IMG/VR virus record: IMGVR_UViG_3300048839_000755
Location: 1 to 25,724 of that record
Source: a virus
DNA length: 25,724 nt
Strand: one strand, 5' to 3'
Shown: in pieces, positions 8,237-21,532 of the stretch
How the letters are laid out: each line of letters starts with the position of its first letter
How positions within the stretch are numbered: the first letter of the stretch is position 1
Program-made: the position numbers and the translations under genes
Notes under the pieces: model-generated
The model's input: the letters and a program-made list of their open reading frames with translations, nothing else
What the model was told of the DNA's origin: nothing
Database searches by the model: none

Positions 8237-8387
8237 CGTTTTTCTCCCACGGCGGTTTCGGTAAGGTGATTTCCACATCGCGCTGTTGAAGCGATCGTTC
8301 CTGCGCGCGACGAATCTTCTCTCCGATAGGTTGCTTCTTCGGATCGTTTCGCGGACGCATTGTGTAGAATTCGACAGGTCGGTTCAT
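8226..8387 (-). CDS. Small basic hypothetical protein (53 aa)
   Basis: Unrecognised. The ATG at 8387 overlaps the stop of the polymerase thumb fragment as ATGA, the junction used throughout this genome, so this start is preferred over the longer open frame up to 8480. The product is basic in the middle (RPRNDPKKQPIGEKIRRAQER) and ends with an acidic KNDDD tail. It might bind nucleic acid or a replication partner; that is a guess from charge and position. Confidence 0.6.
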   Translation of the reverse strand: MNRPVEFYTMRPRNDPKKQPIGEKIRRAQERSLQQRDVEITLPKPPWEKNDDD

Positions 8388-8830
8388 ATCACCAGTTTCT
8401 CCGCTTCTCGAATGTAATAGAGCCAGTTCACGTTGTCCCACCGGAACGCGCTCATGTCGTTCGTCGGCGTCACGGTCCATCCCGCCTGGACAGAGAATCG
8501 GCGGTCTTCCGTTCCCTTATTCTTCAACGGCGGAAGGGTCTTCGTCAACGTCTTTCCGTCAGTCGAGACGTAATACCGCGTGGTGTTCTGGATCGGATCG
8601 TCGCCCCACAAGAGACCACCATTGCGAGGAACCTTGACCGACAACTGGAAGTCGAACGGATCGCGGTGGTTCTTGATGAAATCCGCCACCGGAACGCCAC
8701 GGACCATCTGCGCTTCGGCCGCTTTCCGCACGACCAGCATCGAGTGGTCCTGGTGCCATTGCCGCTCGCGCGTGCCGGGGTCGTCGAAATACGTCTGGTA
8801 GGCATAGGCGCCGATTCGTTTGATCTTCAC
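8384..8830 (-). CDS. Family B DNA polymerase, C-terminal (thumb) fragment of a split gene
   Basis: This 148-aa product is the thumb domain missing from the polymerase fragment upstream. It opens with KIKRIGAYAY, the KxY-type strand that normally follows the palm, and continues with WHQDHSMLVVRKAAEA, DFIKNHRDPFDF and KVPRNGGLLWG, which are features of phage PolB C-termini, then a lysine-rich YYVSTDGKTL hairpin. The start is taken as the GTG at 8830, which overlaps the endonuclease stop (GTGA) and lies 6 nt after AAAGGA; an in-frame GTG at 8848 is an alternative. It should associate with the N-terminal fragment to form a two-subunit enzyme; that assembly is inferred. Confidence 0.87.
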   Translation of the reverse strand: MKIKRIGAYAYQTYFDDPGTRERQWHQDHSMLVVRKAAEAQMVRGVPVADFIKNHRDPFDFQLSVKVPRNGGLLWGDDPIQNTTRYYVSTDGKTLTKTLPPLKNKGTEDRRFSVQAGWTVTPTNDMSAFRWDNVNWLYYIREAEKLVI

Positions 8831-9561
8831 AGGAGTTCCTTTCGCCACTTGAAACCGTAGATACGCTTCTTATGACCATCGCAAACGGAATAGATGTTCT
8901 GCCACTTATACGACGAGTATTTTTCAACAATATCGCGGACGCTCTCGAATGTCTCAATTACGTTGTCGTTTTCGTCGCATTTGTGGAAGCGATAGCGGCG
9001 TTTCGACAATGATACTTTTGCTGCCATTTCCGAACGTTTAGTGTCGTCTTCCCACACCTTCGACGAGCTTTTTCCGATTTTACGTTTCCATTCCGGTCCG
9101 TAACGACCAGCAGCATGTCGGAGTTTCGCGTCGGCTGACATGCTCTGTTTCATTTCACTGGTCCATTTGTTACCATGGTTCGGGTTCCGATATCCGCTGT
9201 TCGACTTCGACATTAAGGCACGAGTTTCGTCACTAGTGACCATTTTTGTCGCGCTGTCTCTACGAAGGTTGAAACCATATCTTCGGTCACACGACATCAA
9301 TTCGTCCATCCACCACAATTCACGTTCCGACGCGATGCTTTCAGCATCGAAATCGAATTCCTCTAACACTCGAAATTCAAATGTGTCGATTCCGTGTTTT
9401 TGCGCAGCGTTCCACATGTGACGGTTCGTGTCCTTCATGCGTTCGGTACGTTTGAGCGCCCAGCGGTGGTTCGCGAAACGCTGCGCCGGATTCACCGTTT
9501 TGCCGACGTAAACCTTTCCATTAGCCGAGCACGTAACAGCGTATATGTAACCCTTGGTCAT
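8827..9561 (-). CDS. GIY-YIG homing endonuclease with NUMOD modules, inserted in the polymerase gene
   Basis: This 244-aa protein has a GIY-YIG nuclease domain (1-95): GYIYAVT (4-10), VYVGKT (17-22), catalytic Arg in AQRFANHR (R28) and metal-binding Glu in SERELWWMDEL (about 79-88). Then follow a NUMOD3 motif (RNPNHGNKWTSEMKQSMS, about 125-142) and a C-terminal NUMOD1-like domain (ETFESVRDIVEKY to GFKWRKE, about 190-242). This is the I-TevI-like architecture of phage homing enzymes. The gene is AT-richer than its surroundings (line 9001-9060: 26 of 60 are G/C). It starts inside the palm fragment stop (ATGA, 9561-9558) and ends inside the thumb fragment start (GTGA), so it splits the polymerase. 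Confidence 0.93.
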   Translation of the reverse strand: MTKGYIYAVTCSANGKVYVGKTVNPAQRFANHRWALKRTERMKDTNRHMWNAAQKHGIDTFEFRVLEEFDFDAESIASERELWWMDELMSCDRRYGFNLRRDSATKMVTSDETRALMSKSNSGYRNPNHGNKWTSEMKQSMSADAKLRHAAGRYGPEWKRKIGKSSSKVWEDDTKRSEMAAKVSLSKRRYRFHKCDENDNVIETFESVRDIVEKYSSYKWQNIYSVCDGHKKRIYGFKWRKELL

Positions 9562-11012
9562 TCCAGCACCGCAATGTAACTGTTCACGTCTCGCTGAAAG
9601 AATGCGGAATAATTCTCAGTTTCCAGTTCCAGTCGTGTAAGTGTTTCCCACCATTCGCAGACAGCATCTACGTGCGGAAGCCATTCCCGGTCAACGATGT
9701 ATTCGAGCCCGTCTGTGTTCACCTGTATCATTTGCAAAGTCGGTGTTCGCATCAATTGTTCGACGAGCATACAGAGAAGAAGTTGACCGTTCACGGTGAT
9801 TGCCATGGTATATTGCGGGTCGTAAAATGGGCTGTATTTGTTGTTCGAGTCCCCATAGACACCGTTGAGGGCCAACTTGAGCATGGCATTCTCCGGGGTG
9901 CCTTTCGGGTAAGATCGGCGCATGTCATAGACCTGTTTGTAAACGTCGCAAAAAGTTTCGGAGAGGTGGTCTGGGTAGAAACGGTTCGAAATCGCCAAGT
10001 TTGGATAGTATGATGCTACATCGCGCCCCTGTACTTGTCGAGTAGAATCTGAACGCCACACCGAATTCTCTACGGCCCCATGAATTCCCCCCGTGCCGAA
10101 GTGGAAAGTAAACCCGTCGATCGTCGCCGACACGTCCTTGAACACGCCCTTCGTGTCGACCGTTTCGGACAGGCTGTCGTCGATCATCTGACGGGTCAGG
10201 ACTTGCTCGCGAAGCCACAGTTCGATCCGCTGAAACTCCGGGTGCTGGAAGATCACACGGGTGCTGATGATGTCGTCGATCCGGATCTGCTCGCGCTTGG
10301 TCTGTCGCGGCTGACGACGCCCGCTGTCGCGCGTGTAACAGGGAGTCCCGTTTCGTTCCAGTTCACGCTCGAAGAACTTCTTGCCGATCTTCGTGTCGTT
10401 CATGTTCAGGATGTCGCCCATGTCGGGGTATTTCTGCGCGAGCTCGTCGCGGAAGTGGATCGCCGGCAAGGACGCGACATAGAACCGGAACGTCTCCGAC
10501 ACGTCATGGGCCATGTAAGTGACGATTTCGTCCTTCTGGGCGCTCGTCGTCGGTTGATCGGGCGGGTACGGCAGGTCGACGACCGATCCGGACCGCATGT
10601 TGATTTCCAGTTTCTTCAACGATGTGGACCTGGCACGATTGTCGAAGTGGTGGATCTTGAACAGATCGCCTTGGGTCACGAACCGATCGGACGGCCAGAT
10701 GACATGCGCCCACCGATCCTGCGACGTGATGATTTCGGTTCCCTTGCGGTGCGCGTCATAGGCCGTGAACGATCCCGCCTGCATGAGAAATTGCAGCACC
10801 GGCCAGTCGAAATGCTCGTTGTTGAACCCGAACATTCGCGCTCCGTTGTCTCGCAGCCACCCGAGATGCGACAGAAGCGCCGCCGACTGATCGACACGAT
10901 CCGAGACCTCGTAGATATAGCGCGTTCGCGTCGCGGCATGGGTCAGGTCGATGCAGAACAGATCAAGATACGTCTCGATGTCGTATATCCAGTCTGATTG
11001 GGGGATGTTCAC
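9558..11012 (-). CDS. Family B DNA polymerase, N-terminal (3'-5' exonuclease + palm) fragment of a split gene
   Basis: This 484-aa product carries all proofreading and catalytic motifs: Exo I DIETY (D11, E13), Exo II NNEHFDWP (D69), Exo III YMAHD (D170), motif A DVASYYPNL (D331), motif B KLALNGVYG (K379-G387) and motif C NTDG (D434). It stops after the strand RDVNSYIAVLE, exactly where the palm should lead into the thumb, and the thumb is encoded after the intervening endonuclease gene. No protein-priming insertion was recognised, so primers probably come from the PrimPol. The start is GTG at 11012 with GGAGG 9 nt upstream, just after a repeated hairpin. The motif C form NTDG, instead of DTDS, keeps the key second Asp. 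Confidence 0.92.
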   Translation of the reverse strand: MNIPQSDWIYDIETYLDLFCIDLTHAATRTRYIYEVSDRVDQSAALLSHLGWLRDNGARMFGFNNEHFDWPVLQFLMQAGSFTAYDAHRKGTEIITSQDRWAHVIWPSDRFVTQGDLFKIHHFDNRARSTSLKKLEINMRSGSVVDLPYPPDQPTTSAQKDEIVTYMAHDVSETFRFYVASLPAIHFRDELAQKYPDMGDILNMNDTKIGKKFFERELERNGTPCYTRDSGRRQPRQTKREQIRIDDIISTRVIFQHPEFQRIELWLREQVLTRQMIDDSLSETVDTKGVFKDVSATIDGFTFHFGTGGIHGAVENSVWRSDSTRQVQGRDVASYYPNLAISNRFYPDHLSETFCDVYKQVYDMRRSYPKGTPENAMLKLALNGVYGDSNNKYSPFYDPQYTMAITVNGQLLLCMLVEQLMRTPTLQMIQVNTDGLEYIVDREWLPHVDAVCEWWETLTRLELETENYSAFFQRDVNSYIAVLE

Positions 11013-18763: not shown

Positions 18764-19289
18764 CCCGAAAACGCTCCGGCAACTTCTTGATTATGATCCG
18801 GAAACTGGTGTTCTGGTCTGGAACTCTGCCCCCCGATTTCTATTCGACACTTCGCGGGGGTTCAATATATGGAATGCGAAGTTTCCAGGGAAGGTAGCCG
18901 GAACCACGAGACACGATGGTTACGTTTCGTTAACCGTCAGGGGTGCTAGGATATTGGCACATCACGTCGCGTGGATCATCACACATGGCGTCGACTGTGA
19001 TTTCATAGATCACATTGATGGGAACCCGTCAAACAACAGGATTCGGAATCTTCGCGACGCAACAATGTCGATGAATGCGAGGAATGCAGCCAAACCGACA
19101 CACAACACCAGCGGATACATCGGGGTTTCTTGGTACAAGCGACGCCAAAAATGGCTGGCCCACATCACCATCTCAAACAGGCAAATATACCTCGGTCTGC
19201 ACAACTGTATCGAAGACGCCATTGCGGCCCGAAAAGCGGCGGAACGCGAATACGGTTTCCATCCGAACCACGGGAGAGAAAAGCAATGA
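18747..19289 (+). CDS. HNH homing endonuclease with AP2 DNA-binding domain
   Basis: This 180-aa protein has the common phage layout: LRQLLDYDPETGVLVW, an HNH core AHHVAWIITHG...DFIDHIDGNPSNNRIRNLR (about 70-110), and a C-terminal AP2 domain SGYIGVSWYKRRQKWLAHI ending with KAAEREYGFH. Such HNH-AP2 proteins are mobile homing enzymes. The ATG at 18747 overlaps the upstream gene by 17 nt, and its TGA overlaps the primase ATG (ATGA). Its first residues NYLPD are outside the usual family start and copy those of the primase downstream (KNYLPD). No split gene is created; the insertion lies between two genes. Confidence 0.92.
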   Translation: MNYLPDPKTLRQLLDYDPETGVLVWNSAPRFLFDTSRGFNIWNAKFPGKVAGTTRHDGYVSLTVRGARILAHHVAWIITHGVDCDFIDHIDGNPSNNRIRNLRDATMSMNARNAAKPTHNTSGYIGVSWYKRRQKWLAHITISNRQIYLGLHNCIEDAIAARKAAEREYGFHPNHGREKQ

Positions 19290-21532
19290 AAAACTATCTC
19301 CCTGACGGCAAATTCATCTGGTACTCGCGCTCATGGGACGCCGCGAAGCAAAAATACATAAAGATTCCGTCCGACAAGCACGGTGTGACCATCAACGCTC
19401 ATGACCGGTCGAATTGGGTCACGCACGCCGAAGCCATGCCTCATGCGACGTGGGACGACACGAAACCCGGACCCTATGGCGTGGCGTGGGTGTTGAACGG
19501 CGACGGGTGGTTTTTTATGGACCTCGACAATTGCCGCACAGAGACCGGGGAGTGGACCGCCGAAGCCGCTGCGATATACCAGTCGTTCGGTGGCGCGCTG
19601 GGCGAGGTCAGCACGTCGAACACTGGCTTGCACGTCTTCGGTCGGTGCGATCCGTCGCAACTCACCGACCGCCGTAACAAGTGGGGCGGTGACAAGGAGT
19701 GGTATCATACCGGACGCTTCGTCGCCCTGTCCGAACACGGTCCACAACCGATCGGCACCTATGACCCGAACCGCGACTGGACCGATCAGATCCGACATCT
19801 CGTGCCGGAACGCGAATATCTCGGAGAACTCCCGGACGGCGTTGATCCGTCCTACACCGGTCCCGAGAACGACGACGACCTGATCCGGATCGCCTGCGCC
19901 TCGCGGTCCGCAGCGTCCGCGTTCGGTGACGCGCCGTCTTTCGACGATCTGTGGACCGGCAACGTCGCGGCACTGGCACGCAAATACCCGGCGTTTGACG
20001 GTGGGTCCGATTTCGATCACTCGTCGGCCGACGCGGCGCTCATGTCACACCTCGCGTTCTGGACCGGCAAAGACATGCCGCGCATGGATCGGCTCTTTCG
20101 CCGCTCTGCCCTGATGCGAGACAAATACGAGAAACGGGCCGACTACCGGCGCGACACGATCCAGAACGCGGCGCGGCTCACCAAGTCGGTCTATGACAGA
20201 CCCGCCCCGATCGTCGCGCCCGGCGCCGAGAACGACAAGCCGGCAATCATGCACGCTCACGATATGATCGAGCACTTTAAGGGCTGCGTCTACATCCGCG
20301 ACATGCACCGCGTCCTCGTACCAGACGGGTCGATCCTGAAACCGGACCAGTTCCGTGTAATGTACGGCGGTCACAAATTCCTCCTTATGCCTGACAGCAC
20401 CGGTCCGACGAAATCCGCCTTCGAAGCGTTCACCGAGGCGGCGTCGGTTCGGTTCCCCAAAGCCAATGCGCCTGTTTTCCGTCCAGATATGCCATTTGGC
20501 ACACTCGTCGACGGCGATGTGAATATCTACAAACCAGCCGACATCATCACGAAACGTGGCGATCCGTCGCGATTCCTTCGTCATCTCGAACTGCTCCTGC
20601 CAGATCCGAATGATCGCGCGATCCTGCTCGCCTACATGGCCGCGGTCGTTCAATACCCCGGTGTGAAATTCCAGTGGGCGCCGGTGATCCAAGGCACCGA
20701 GGGCAACGGCAAGTCACTATTCTCACGGGTGCTGCGATACGCAGTCGGTCCGAAATACACATTCGAGCCGAAAGCGGACCAGATCGGGTCGAACTTCAAT
20801 GCATGGGTCGAAGCGAAACTGCTCATCTCGATCGAGGAAGTTCACATGCGGCAACGCCTTGAATTGCTCGACCGCCTGAAACCACTTATCACAAACGAGT
20901 GGATCGAGGTCGAGGGCAAGGGTGTCGACGCACGCATGGCGCGCAACACCGCGAACTGGATATTCTTCACGAACTACCAGGACGCGATTATCAAATCACG
21001 CAACGACCGTCGCTATGCGATATTCTTCACCGCGCAACAGACCGCCGACGACATCGTGTCTGCCGGTATGGGTGGCGACTACTTCCCCGATATCTACGAC
21101 TGGTTGCGGGCCGACGGCTATGCGATCATCGCCGATTTTTTCCGGACCTATCAGATCCCCGATCGCCTGAACCCCGCGATCGGTGCGCATCGGGCTCCGA
21201 CTACATCGTCGACCGAAGAAGCGATCCAGACGAGCCGTGGACCGATCGAGCAACTCGTCGAAGATGCGATCGAATCGGACGCGGCGGGTTTCCGTGGCGG
21301 CTGGATATCATCGACGAAACTCCGCGAACTTCTCGACCGGAACCGGATGAATATATCGCTCCGCAAACAAGCGGATATGCTGCGCGGGCTCGGGTTCCGC
21401 GAACACGGACGGGCCGGAACACCGATCGTACAGGAAGGCGGCTCCCGACCGATGCTCTGGTGCCGCGGGGAGAACGATCCGGCCGAACCCTACATGATCG
21501 CGAATTACCTCGGATACTTGAACGATCAGTGA
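19286..21532 (+). CDS. Primase-polymerase (PrimPol) fused to SF3 helicase
   Basis: This 748-aa protein combines an archaeo-eukaryotic primase-type N-terminal domain and a C-terminal SF3-like ATPase. In the former, WFFMDLDNC provides the metal-binding D79 and D81, and STSNTGLHVFGR provides the SxxxGxH motif around H116. The ATPase has Walker A QGTEGNGKSLF at about residue 470, Walker B LLISIEEVH at about 515, and the sensor-type WIFFTNYQDAI. The layout resembles the NrS-1 phage self-priming polymerase and phage VirE/D5-like primases. It probably makes primers for the family B polymerase and unwinds DNA. The start is the ATG at 19286 (ATGA overlap); an open frame continues upstream in a shadow of the HNH gene. 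Confidence 0.92.
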   Translation: MKNYLPDGKFIWYSRSWDAAKQKYIKIPSDKHGVTINAHDRSNWVTHAEAMPHATWDDTKPGPYGVAWVLNGDGWFFMDLDNCRTETGEWTAEAAAIYQSFGGALGEVSTSNTGLHVFGRCDPSQLTDRRNKWGGDKEWYHTGRFVALSEHGPQPIGTYDPNRDWTDQIRHLVPEREYLGELPDGVDPSYTGPENDDDLIRIACASRSAASAFGDAPSFDDLWTGNVAALARKYPAFDGGSDFDHSSADAALMSHLAFWTGKDMPRMDRLFRRSALMRDKYEKRADYRRDTIQNAARLTKSVYDRPAPIVAPGAENDKPAIMHAHDMIEHFKGCVYIRDMHRVLVPDGSILKPDQFRVMYGGHKFLLMPDSTGPTKSAFEAFTEAASVRFPKANAPVFRPDMPFGTLVDGDVNIYKPADIITKRGDPSRFLRHLELLLPDPNDRAILLAYMAAVVQYPGVKFQWAPVIQGTEGNGKSLFSRVLRYAVGPKYTFEPKADQIGSNFNAWVEAKLLISIEEVHMRQRLELLDRLKPLITNEWIEVEGKGVDARMARNTANWIFFTNYQDAIIKSRNDRRYAIFFTAQQTADDIVSAGMGGDYFPDIYDWLRADGYAIIADFFRTYQIPDRLNPAIGAHRAPTTSSTEEAIQTSRGPIEQLVEDAIESDAAGFRGGWISSTKLRELLDRNRMNISLRKQADMLRGLGFREHGRAGTPIVQEGGSRPMLWCRGENDPAEPYMIANYLGYLNDQ

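Follow-up and report, generated by a model that had tools for sequence, protein, structure and literature searches.

The stretch analyzed here, called the window throughout the text, is a 25.7-kb fragment of a virus from IMG/VR (IMGVR_UViG_3300048839_000755, positions 1 to 25,724) and not a complete genome. It encodes a family B DNA polymerase in two parts, with a gene for a homing endonuclease between them. Three consecutive genes on the minus strand form this locus, at the places given in a preliminary description of the same DNA. The first gene (9558-11012, 484 aa, GTG start) encodes the 3'-5' exonuclease together with the palm/fingers part of the polymerase, termed exo-palm in the following, and keeps the exonuclease and polymerase motifs DIETY, NNEHFD, YMAHD, DVASYYP and NTDG. 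The second (8827-9561, 244 aa) encodes a GIY-YIG homing endonuclease with NUMOD3, both domains scoring above the Pfam cut-off (PF01541 GIY-YIG, E 5e-10; PF07460 NUMOD3, E 8e-7); relatives occupy the same seam in loci L108 and L194-L196 of our survey. The third (8384-8830, 148 aa, GTG start) is a separate gene for the thumb domain of this polymerase. Both seams are overlaps of 4 nucleotides, exactly as described before: ATGA at seam 1 (9558-9561, minus strand), combining the palm stop TGA with the endonuclease start ATG, and GTGA at seam 2 (8827-8830, minus strand), combining the thumb start GTG with the endonuclease stop TGA. The ATGA of seam 1 recurs in L108, L194 and most split loci of Jedunavirus phages, and an overlap at the position of seam 2 was seen in nearly all split relatives. 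The previously noted AAAGGA was also found (8837-8842, minus strand), 6 nucleotides ahead of the thumb GTG, and represents the predicted ribosome-binding site of the thumb gene. An alternative in-frame GTG start is present at 8848, six codons upstream; the ribosome-binding site belongs to the start at 8830.

The exo-palm and thumb proteins were recognized as consecutive parts of one polymerase because they match successive stretches of PHROG family 1252 (DNA polymerase, 663 positions), the first open reading frame (ORF) covering positions 52-506 (E 1.6e-146) and the third positions 512-648 (E 3.9e-28). Searching IMG/VR with the thumb yielded ten relatives (41-83% thumb identity) with palm to thumb in one open frame; the adjacency of the two parts is therefore not due to chance, and the uninterrupted allele that the preliminary description had proposed to look for exists. 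Every one of the closest relatives of the window is fused across the seam. At the junction the fused relative L002 reads RDVNSYIAV-KTKGG-LKRIGAYAY, and the window reads RDVNSYIAV-LE followed by the stop and VK-IKRIGAYAY. Judging from this alignment, hardly any sequence was lost at the split, and two new ends replace the fused hairpin turn. An AlphaFold2 model of L002 (37 sequences, predicted local confidence score, pLDDT, of 93) placed strands at residues 474-479 and 484-487 and the seam in the turn formed by residues 480-483, in agreement with the proposed junction in the beta-hairpin between palm and thumb. Using this model, Foldseek returned family B polymerases as top matches, and a profile match to archaeal PolB structures aligned the seam with the turn IDEEGK of KOD polymerase, after KKKY. 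Membership in family B is indicated by the exonuclease/palm/thumb composition, motif A (DxxxxYP), motif C (xTD) and the B-type order and fold. The fused relatives support the claim that a homing endonuclease gene split the polymerase by inserting there, and with an endonuclease ORF placed within a gene that relatives have uninterrupted, and neither intron nor intein, the window gene has the properties of an intronless splitter.

In order to see how often and by what this seam is broken, the polymerase family was surveyed in phage records and IMG/VR. The survey yielded 156 distinct loci in which both palm and thumb are present, 125 of them fused and 31 split at the palm-thumb seam. The pattern scan employed for split thumb starts is biased towards splits, and prevalence was taken from homology scans only, which for IMG/VR gave 17 split loci out of 131. 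Scanning genome contigs yielded six relatives. L039 was left out of the counts due to a single-base frame break at the seam with no insert, probably a sequencing error; L019, L199 and L205, with a stop at the end of the protein, were counted as fused. The inserts formed three unrelated endonuclease clusters: GIY-YIG with or without NUMOD3 (window, L021, L068, L073, L082, L108, L109, L194-L196, L201), T5orf172/MUG113 with treble-clef zinc fingers according to Pfam (L020, L022, L023, L229, L233, L236), and, likewise by Pfam, HNH_3 with or without a recognizable AP2 domain (L052, L058, L060, L102, L107, L121, L142, L148, L159, L230-L232). L108 and L194 likewise have the endonuclease type of the window (45-47% identity) at this seam, again with an ATGA overlap. 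In a tree of the exonuclease part, a region away from the seam, the fused or split state needs at least 14 changes, and a label including the endonuclease types needs 18, with gains and losses not distinguishable. The preliminary description knew of no precedent for this polymerase group in GTA-like phages; the case is not a lone one, as inserts of three unrelated endonuclease types have broken this seam again and again, and about 25 Jedunavirus records are among the cases.

Several further observations were made in the surveyed family. One Vibrio lineage (L018) is split at the seam with no insert: in Vibrio phage LMAVpVPP and four more records (L018:2998-5089) palm and thumb are separate genes 4 nucleotides apart, without an endonuclease. 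The Schitoviridae Vibrio phage VCO139 (L024:3977-4600; also JA-1 and JSF3) has an orphan gene for a thumb, which shares 73% identity with the LMAV thumb and is labeled DNA polymerase in RefSeq; no matching palm was found nearby. In L073:2826-3501 the GIY-YIG gene at the seam is broken into two ORFs, reflecting either a decaying endonuclease or a sequencing error. Near-identical Jedunavirus phages bear different endonuclease families at one seam, as if it had been re-occupied or the genes swapped. The endonuclease family of the window also accompanies polB without splitting it; in L014:2157-4729 (also L012, L013 and L015) an endonuclease about 48% identical to that of the window is free-standing, about 50 nucleotides downstream of an intact, distantly related polB.

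Comparing the three regions of the window polymerase with those of its relatives, a change of affiliation became visible. The exonuclease and the thumb belong to the clade L002-L010, with best identities of 74% and 83%, respectively (thumb 83% with L002). For the palm residues 331-484, L196 is closest (70%); it carries the endonuclease type of the window and is only 38% identical in the exonuclease and only 41% in the thumb. Sliding identity located the switch between residues 300 and 400. At clade-diagnostic sites the window agreed with its own clade versus the other at 31:1 in residues 1-300 and at 7:9 in residues 401-484 (Fisher p 6e-5), and six control members of its clade gave 14-17 versus 0-1 at the same sites. 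The GC content at third codon positions (GC3) fell from about 0.80 to 0.60 and 0.54 within the tract, was 0.57 in the endonuclease gene and returned to 0.78 in the thumb gene. The low-GC tract covers 8831-10100 on the minus strand, namely the palm from about residue 305 plus the endonuclease, the upstream edge being approximate, and is a candidate co-conversion tract. Trees placed the exonuclease firmly in its own clade and rejected a grouping of exonuclease or thumb with the donor-like group. On the basis of regional identity, diagnostic sites and GC3, the palm segment and the endonuclease look imported by co-conversion from another lineage, with exonuclease and thumb native, a reading that is supported, not proven. 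A donor palm and endonuclease beside a recipient thumb is the pattern expected from co-conversion during homing. Together with the patchy distribution, the co-conversion-like tract speaks indirectly for an endonuclease that may cut insertion-free alleles and copy itself into them.

The thumb appears to be translated separately, as had been proposed. Among endonuclease-type split thumbs, 27 of 28 have a start codon at the seam; ATG stands there in 21 of these thumbs and in 1 of 113 genes of the fused type. Matches to the Shine-Dalgarno sequence 4 nucleotides long or longer were found for 24 of 27 split thumbs versus 53 of 113 fused genes. These frequencies suggest that independent initiation of the thumb was selected for. 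Comparing split loci, ratios of nonsynonymous to synonymous substitution (dN/dS) of 0.03-0.22 for exo-palm and 0.04-0.23 for the thumb were obtained where dS was measurable. Where both members have the same split type and dS is about 1-2 (L121/L148/L159, L195/L196, L068/L082), the ratio was 0.03-0.10; fused pairs gave 0.06-0.12, and the window thumb versus L002 0.09. Values in this range indicate that purifying selection acts on split palms and thumbs. Klebsiella Jedunavirus isolates carry the split polymerase, with both fused and split forms occurring in one genus, and in the complete genome of the isolate KpV79 the split genes, located beside helicase and primase, are the only annotated DNA polymerase. 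Because of the purifying selection and of KpV79 with no other annotated DNA polymerase, the two-chain enzyme is likely functional; a working two-subunit replicase, rather than a dead gene, is favored, as it was in the preliminary description.

We consider it very probable that the following explanation holds as a whole: intronless homing insertion, three coupled proteins, a reassembling replicase and a recurrent hot spot. A free-standing intronless GIY-YIG homing endonuclease gene would sit in the palm-thumb hairpin turn of phage polB. Homing is its probable route of arrival: during co-infection, a donor phage's endonuclease would have cut the uninterrupted gene, and repair would have copied in the endonuclease together with several hundred bases of donor palm. 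The polycistronic message would be read as three coupled proteins, exo-palm up to the ATGA, then the endonuclease, then the thumb from its own GTG with the AAAGGA. Palm and thumb chains may associate and form an active replicase of two subunits, in which the two strands of the hairpin would pair across the seam. That this seam is a recurrent hot spot is probably explained by its position beside conserved coding sequence, a possible target of endonucleases, and by the fact that a chain cut there leaves the domains whole. Of the earlier interpretation, homing insertion, separate thumb and likely function thus stand, and the case is not a lone one.

Three other explanations were weighed against this one. 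The insertion might have inactivated the polymerase, leaving it dead or dying and the phage replicated by another enzyme. Room for such an enzyme exists, as the window is incomplete and contains a primase (19130-21532, plus strand) with an NrS-1 polymerase-type HBD domain, which might have polymerase activity of its own. We nevertheless regard inactivation as improbable: all catalytic motifs are intact and both frames open, the low dN/dS of the window thumb versus L002 is matched by 0.06-0.10 among split relatives at dS of about 2, and KpV79 has only the split polymerase annotated. About equally improbable is a polymerase already split, as in the Vibrio LMAV phages, with the endonuclease later invading the gap between the genes. 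A similar doubt was voiced for Aeromonas phage 25 (PMC2988022), and the LMAV palm and thumb are indeed separate without an endonuclease. However, the window has only fused genes among its nearest relatives, and the exonuclease tree puts it among them; the LMAV phages themselves look like a case of endonuclease loss with the split kept, because the seam of L142, their nearest relative, is occupied by an HNH endonuclease. Separate thumbs without an endonuclease, named in the preliminary description as an observation that would speak against homing, were thus encountered only in this side lineage.

The least probable explanation, with hardly any chance in our estimate, is removal of the insert from RNA or protein as an intron or intein, joining the polymerase. 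It draws on Flavobacterium phage Fpv1, where the gene of a related polymerase has a group I intron that encloses a related GIY-YIG endonuclease. The Fpv1 intron is located at another site, motif A, whereas the insert of the window consists of the ORF alone, overlapping both parts by 4 nucleotides, with stops at the palm end and the endonuclease end, and the starts of separate thumbs are conserved. An Rfam search of 8300-10100 gave no intron or other RNA match at E up to 1, and the same search found the group I intron of Fpv1 as positive control (RF00028, E 3e-10). A group I or II intron at the seam was rejected in the absence of intron RNA from this region, so that splicing of palm to thumb, which the preliminary description had named as an objection, gained no support. 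A split intein was rejected as well, palm end and thumb start lying within few residues of the fused junction with no room for intein blocks. Bypass or frameshifting from palm to thumb was ruled out by an insert of about 730 nucleotides with a complete ORF and a thumb with its own start. The Fpv1 locus itself (L017:3665-6732, NC_031914) is annotated as two DNA polymerases plus an endonuclease and is really a single polymerase gene interrupted at motif A by a group I intron. From the sequence comparison, one endonuclease family is thus associated with a group I intron in Fpv1 and with a bare insertion in the window.

A number of points weigh against the homing insertion with a reassembling replicase. 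The evidence consists of sequence and models, and target and cleavage of the endonuclease at the seam were deduced from its position only. Selection and viability are documented mostly in relatives rather than in the window itself. The genome beyond this fragment may hold another polymerase, and the primase with its NrS-1 polymerase-type domain counts in the same direction. In the palm tree, a position of the window inside its own clade was not rejected by the approximately unbiased (AU) test (p 0.145). Finally, AlphaFold2 modeled residues 30-148 of the lone window thumb confidently, but residues 1-29, including the seam strand, reached pLDDT of about 40-60 and were not confidently placed, compared to at least 92 for the corresponding stretch in the fused L002 model. 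This N-terminal arm of the thumb may dock on the palm.

A broader proposal is put forward with considerable reserve, as we find it possible rather than probable: the hairpin might be a general lodging site for unrelated endonucleases that do not kill the replicase, and homing might shuffle a module of palm and endonuclease between lineages, with exonuclease and thumb left in place, creating chimeric replicases with a separable thumb, maybe exchanged or supplied in trans. Such exchange or supply is conceivable because orphan thumb genes exist in Vibrio Schitoviridae. The locus makes it testable how a replicative polymerase without a covalent link between the palm and the DNA-gripping thumb stays processive, and whether homing drives domain exchange in replicases. 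It offers a natural place to divide the enzyme when two-part polymerases are to be engineered, and annotations as "hypothetical protein" miss half of the replicase.

The locus is set in a replication module comprising an exonuclease (DUF2800), a Gp2.5-like single-stranded DNA-binding protein, the three split-polymerase genes and a deoxynucleoside monophosphate kinase, with helicase, methyltransferase and the primase on the other strand. Scans of the locus for terminators and promoters gave nothing usable. A contig assigned to the bacterium Sedimentitalea (Rhodobacterales) encodes a thumb 68% identical to that of the window. The label "GTA-like phages" of the preliminary description was not confirmed for this IMG/VR fragment.

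A few T4-like cases were already known in which a homing endonuclease splits an essential enzyme. In Aeromonas phage Aeh1 the intronless endonuclease gene mobE splits nrdA, and the two chains still work (PMC2988022); unlike in the window, the split gene of Aeh1 encodes a ribonucleotide reductase and the endonuclease is of the HNH type. Gene 43 of Aeromonas phage 25 shares with the window a polymerase split around an endonuclease (43A, seg-like endonuclease, 43B), and 43A and 43B co-purify and have polymerase activity (PMC2988022). Aligned to T4 gp43, 43A ends at residue 500 and 43B begins at residue 512, and the KKRY motif of T4, adjoining the palm-thumb hairpin, is found at residue 702, so that the phage 25 split lies about 200 residues before the hairpin. 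From the RB69 and T4 polymerase structures we take residues 500-512 to be fingers. Phage 25 is thus a precedent for a split replicase, as had been claimed, but its fracture point is in the fingers and not between palm and thumb, its 43B also bears a group IA2 intron, and its polymerase lineage is distant. Endonuclease genes cluster at exchange boundaries near DNA polymerase genes (PMC10448857), and the OM43 phages MEP401 and MEP402 have DNA polymerase genes split by small unknown ORFs (PMC10580990), which may be another case of the same process. A literature search that reached few subscription journals gave no publication describing the hot spot between palm and thumb or the split in Jedunavirus. 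Fpv1 shares with the window a related endonuclease (32%) and a related polymerase, and differs by its group I intron, which is inserted at motif A and presumably spliced. The Klebsiella Jedunavirus phages KpV79, pKp383, JustaPhage, KpTRp1 and BUCT_49532 have the same polymerase family, the same palm-thumb seam and an endonuclease ORF between the parts, some of these splits being annotated as two "DNA polymerase" genes; their inserts are mostly T5orf172/Zn-finger or HNH, and only the KpTRp1 type is GIY-YIG, with no NUMOD3 match. Compared to the known systems, one replicase loop broken repeatedly by three unrelated endonuclease types, in cultivable phages, is new. The window locus is a real and probably functional split replicase, the product of a known type of process at a fracture point that is new, recurrent and convergent.
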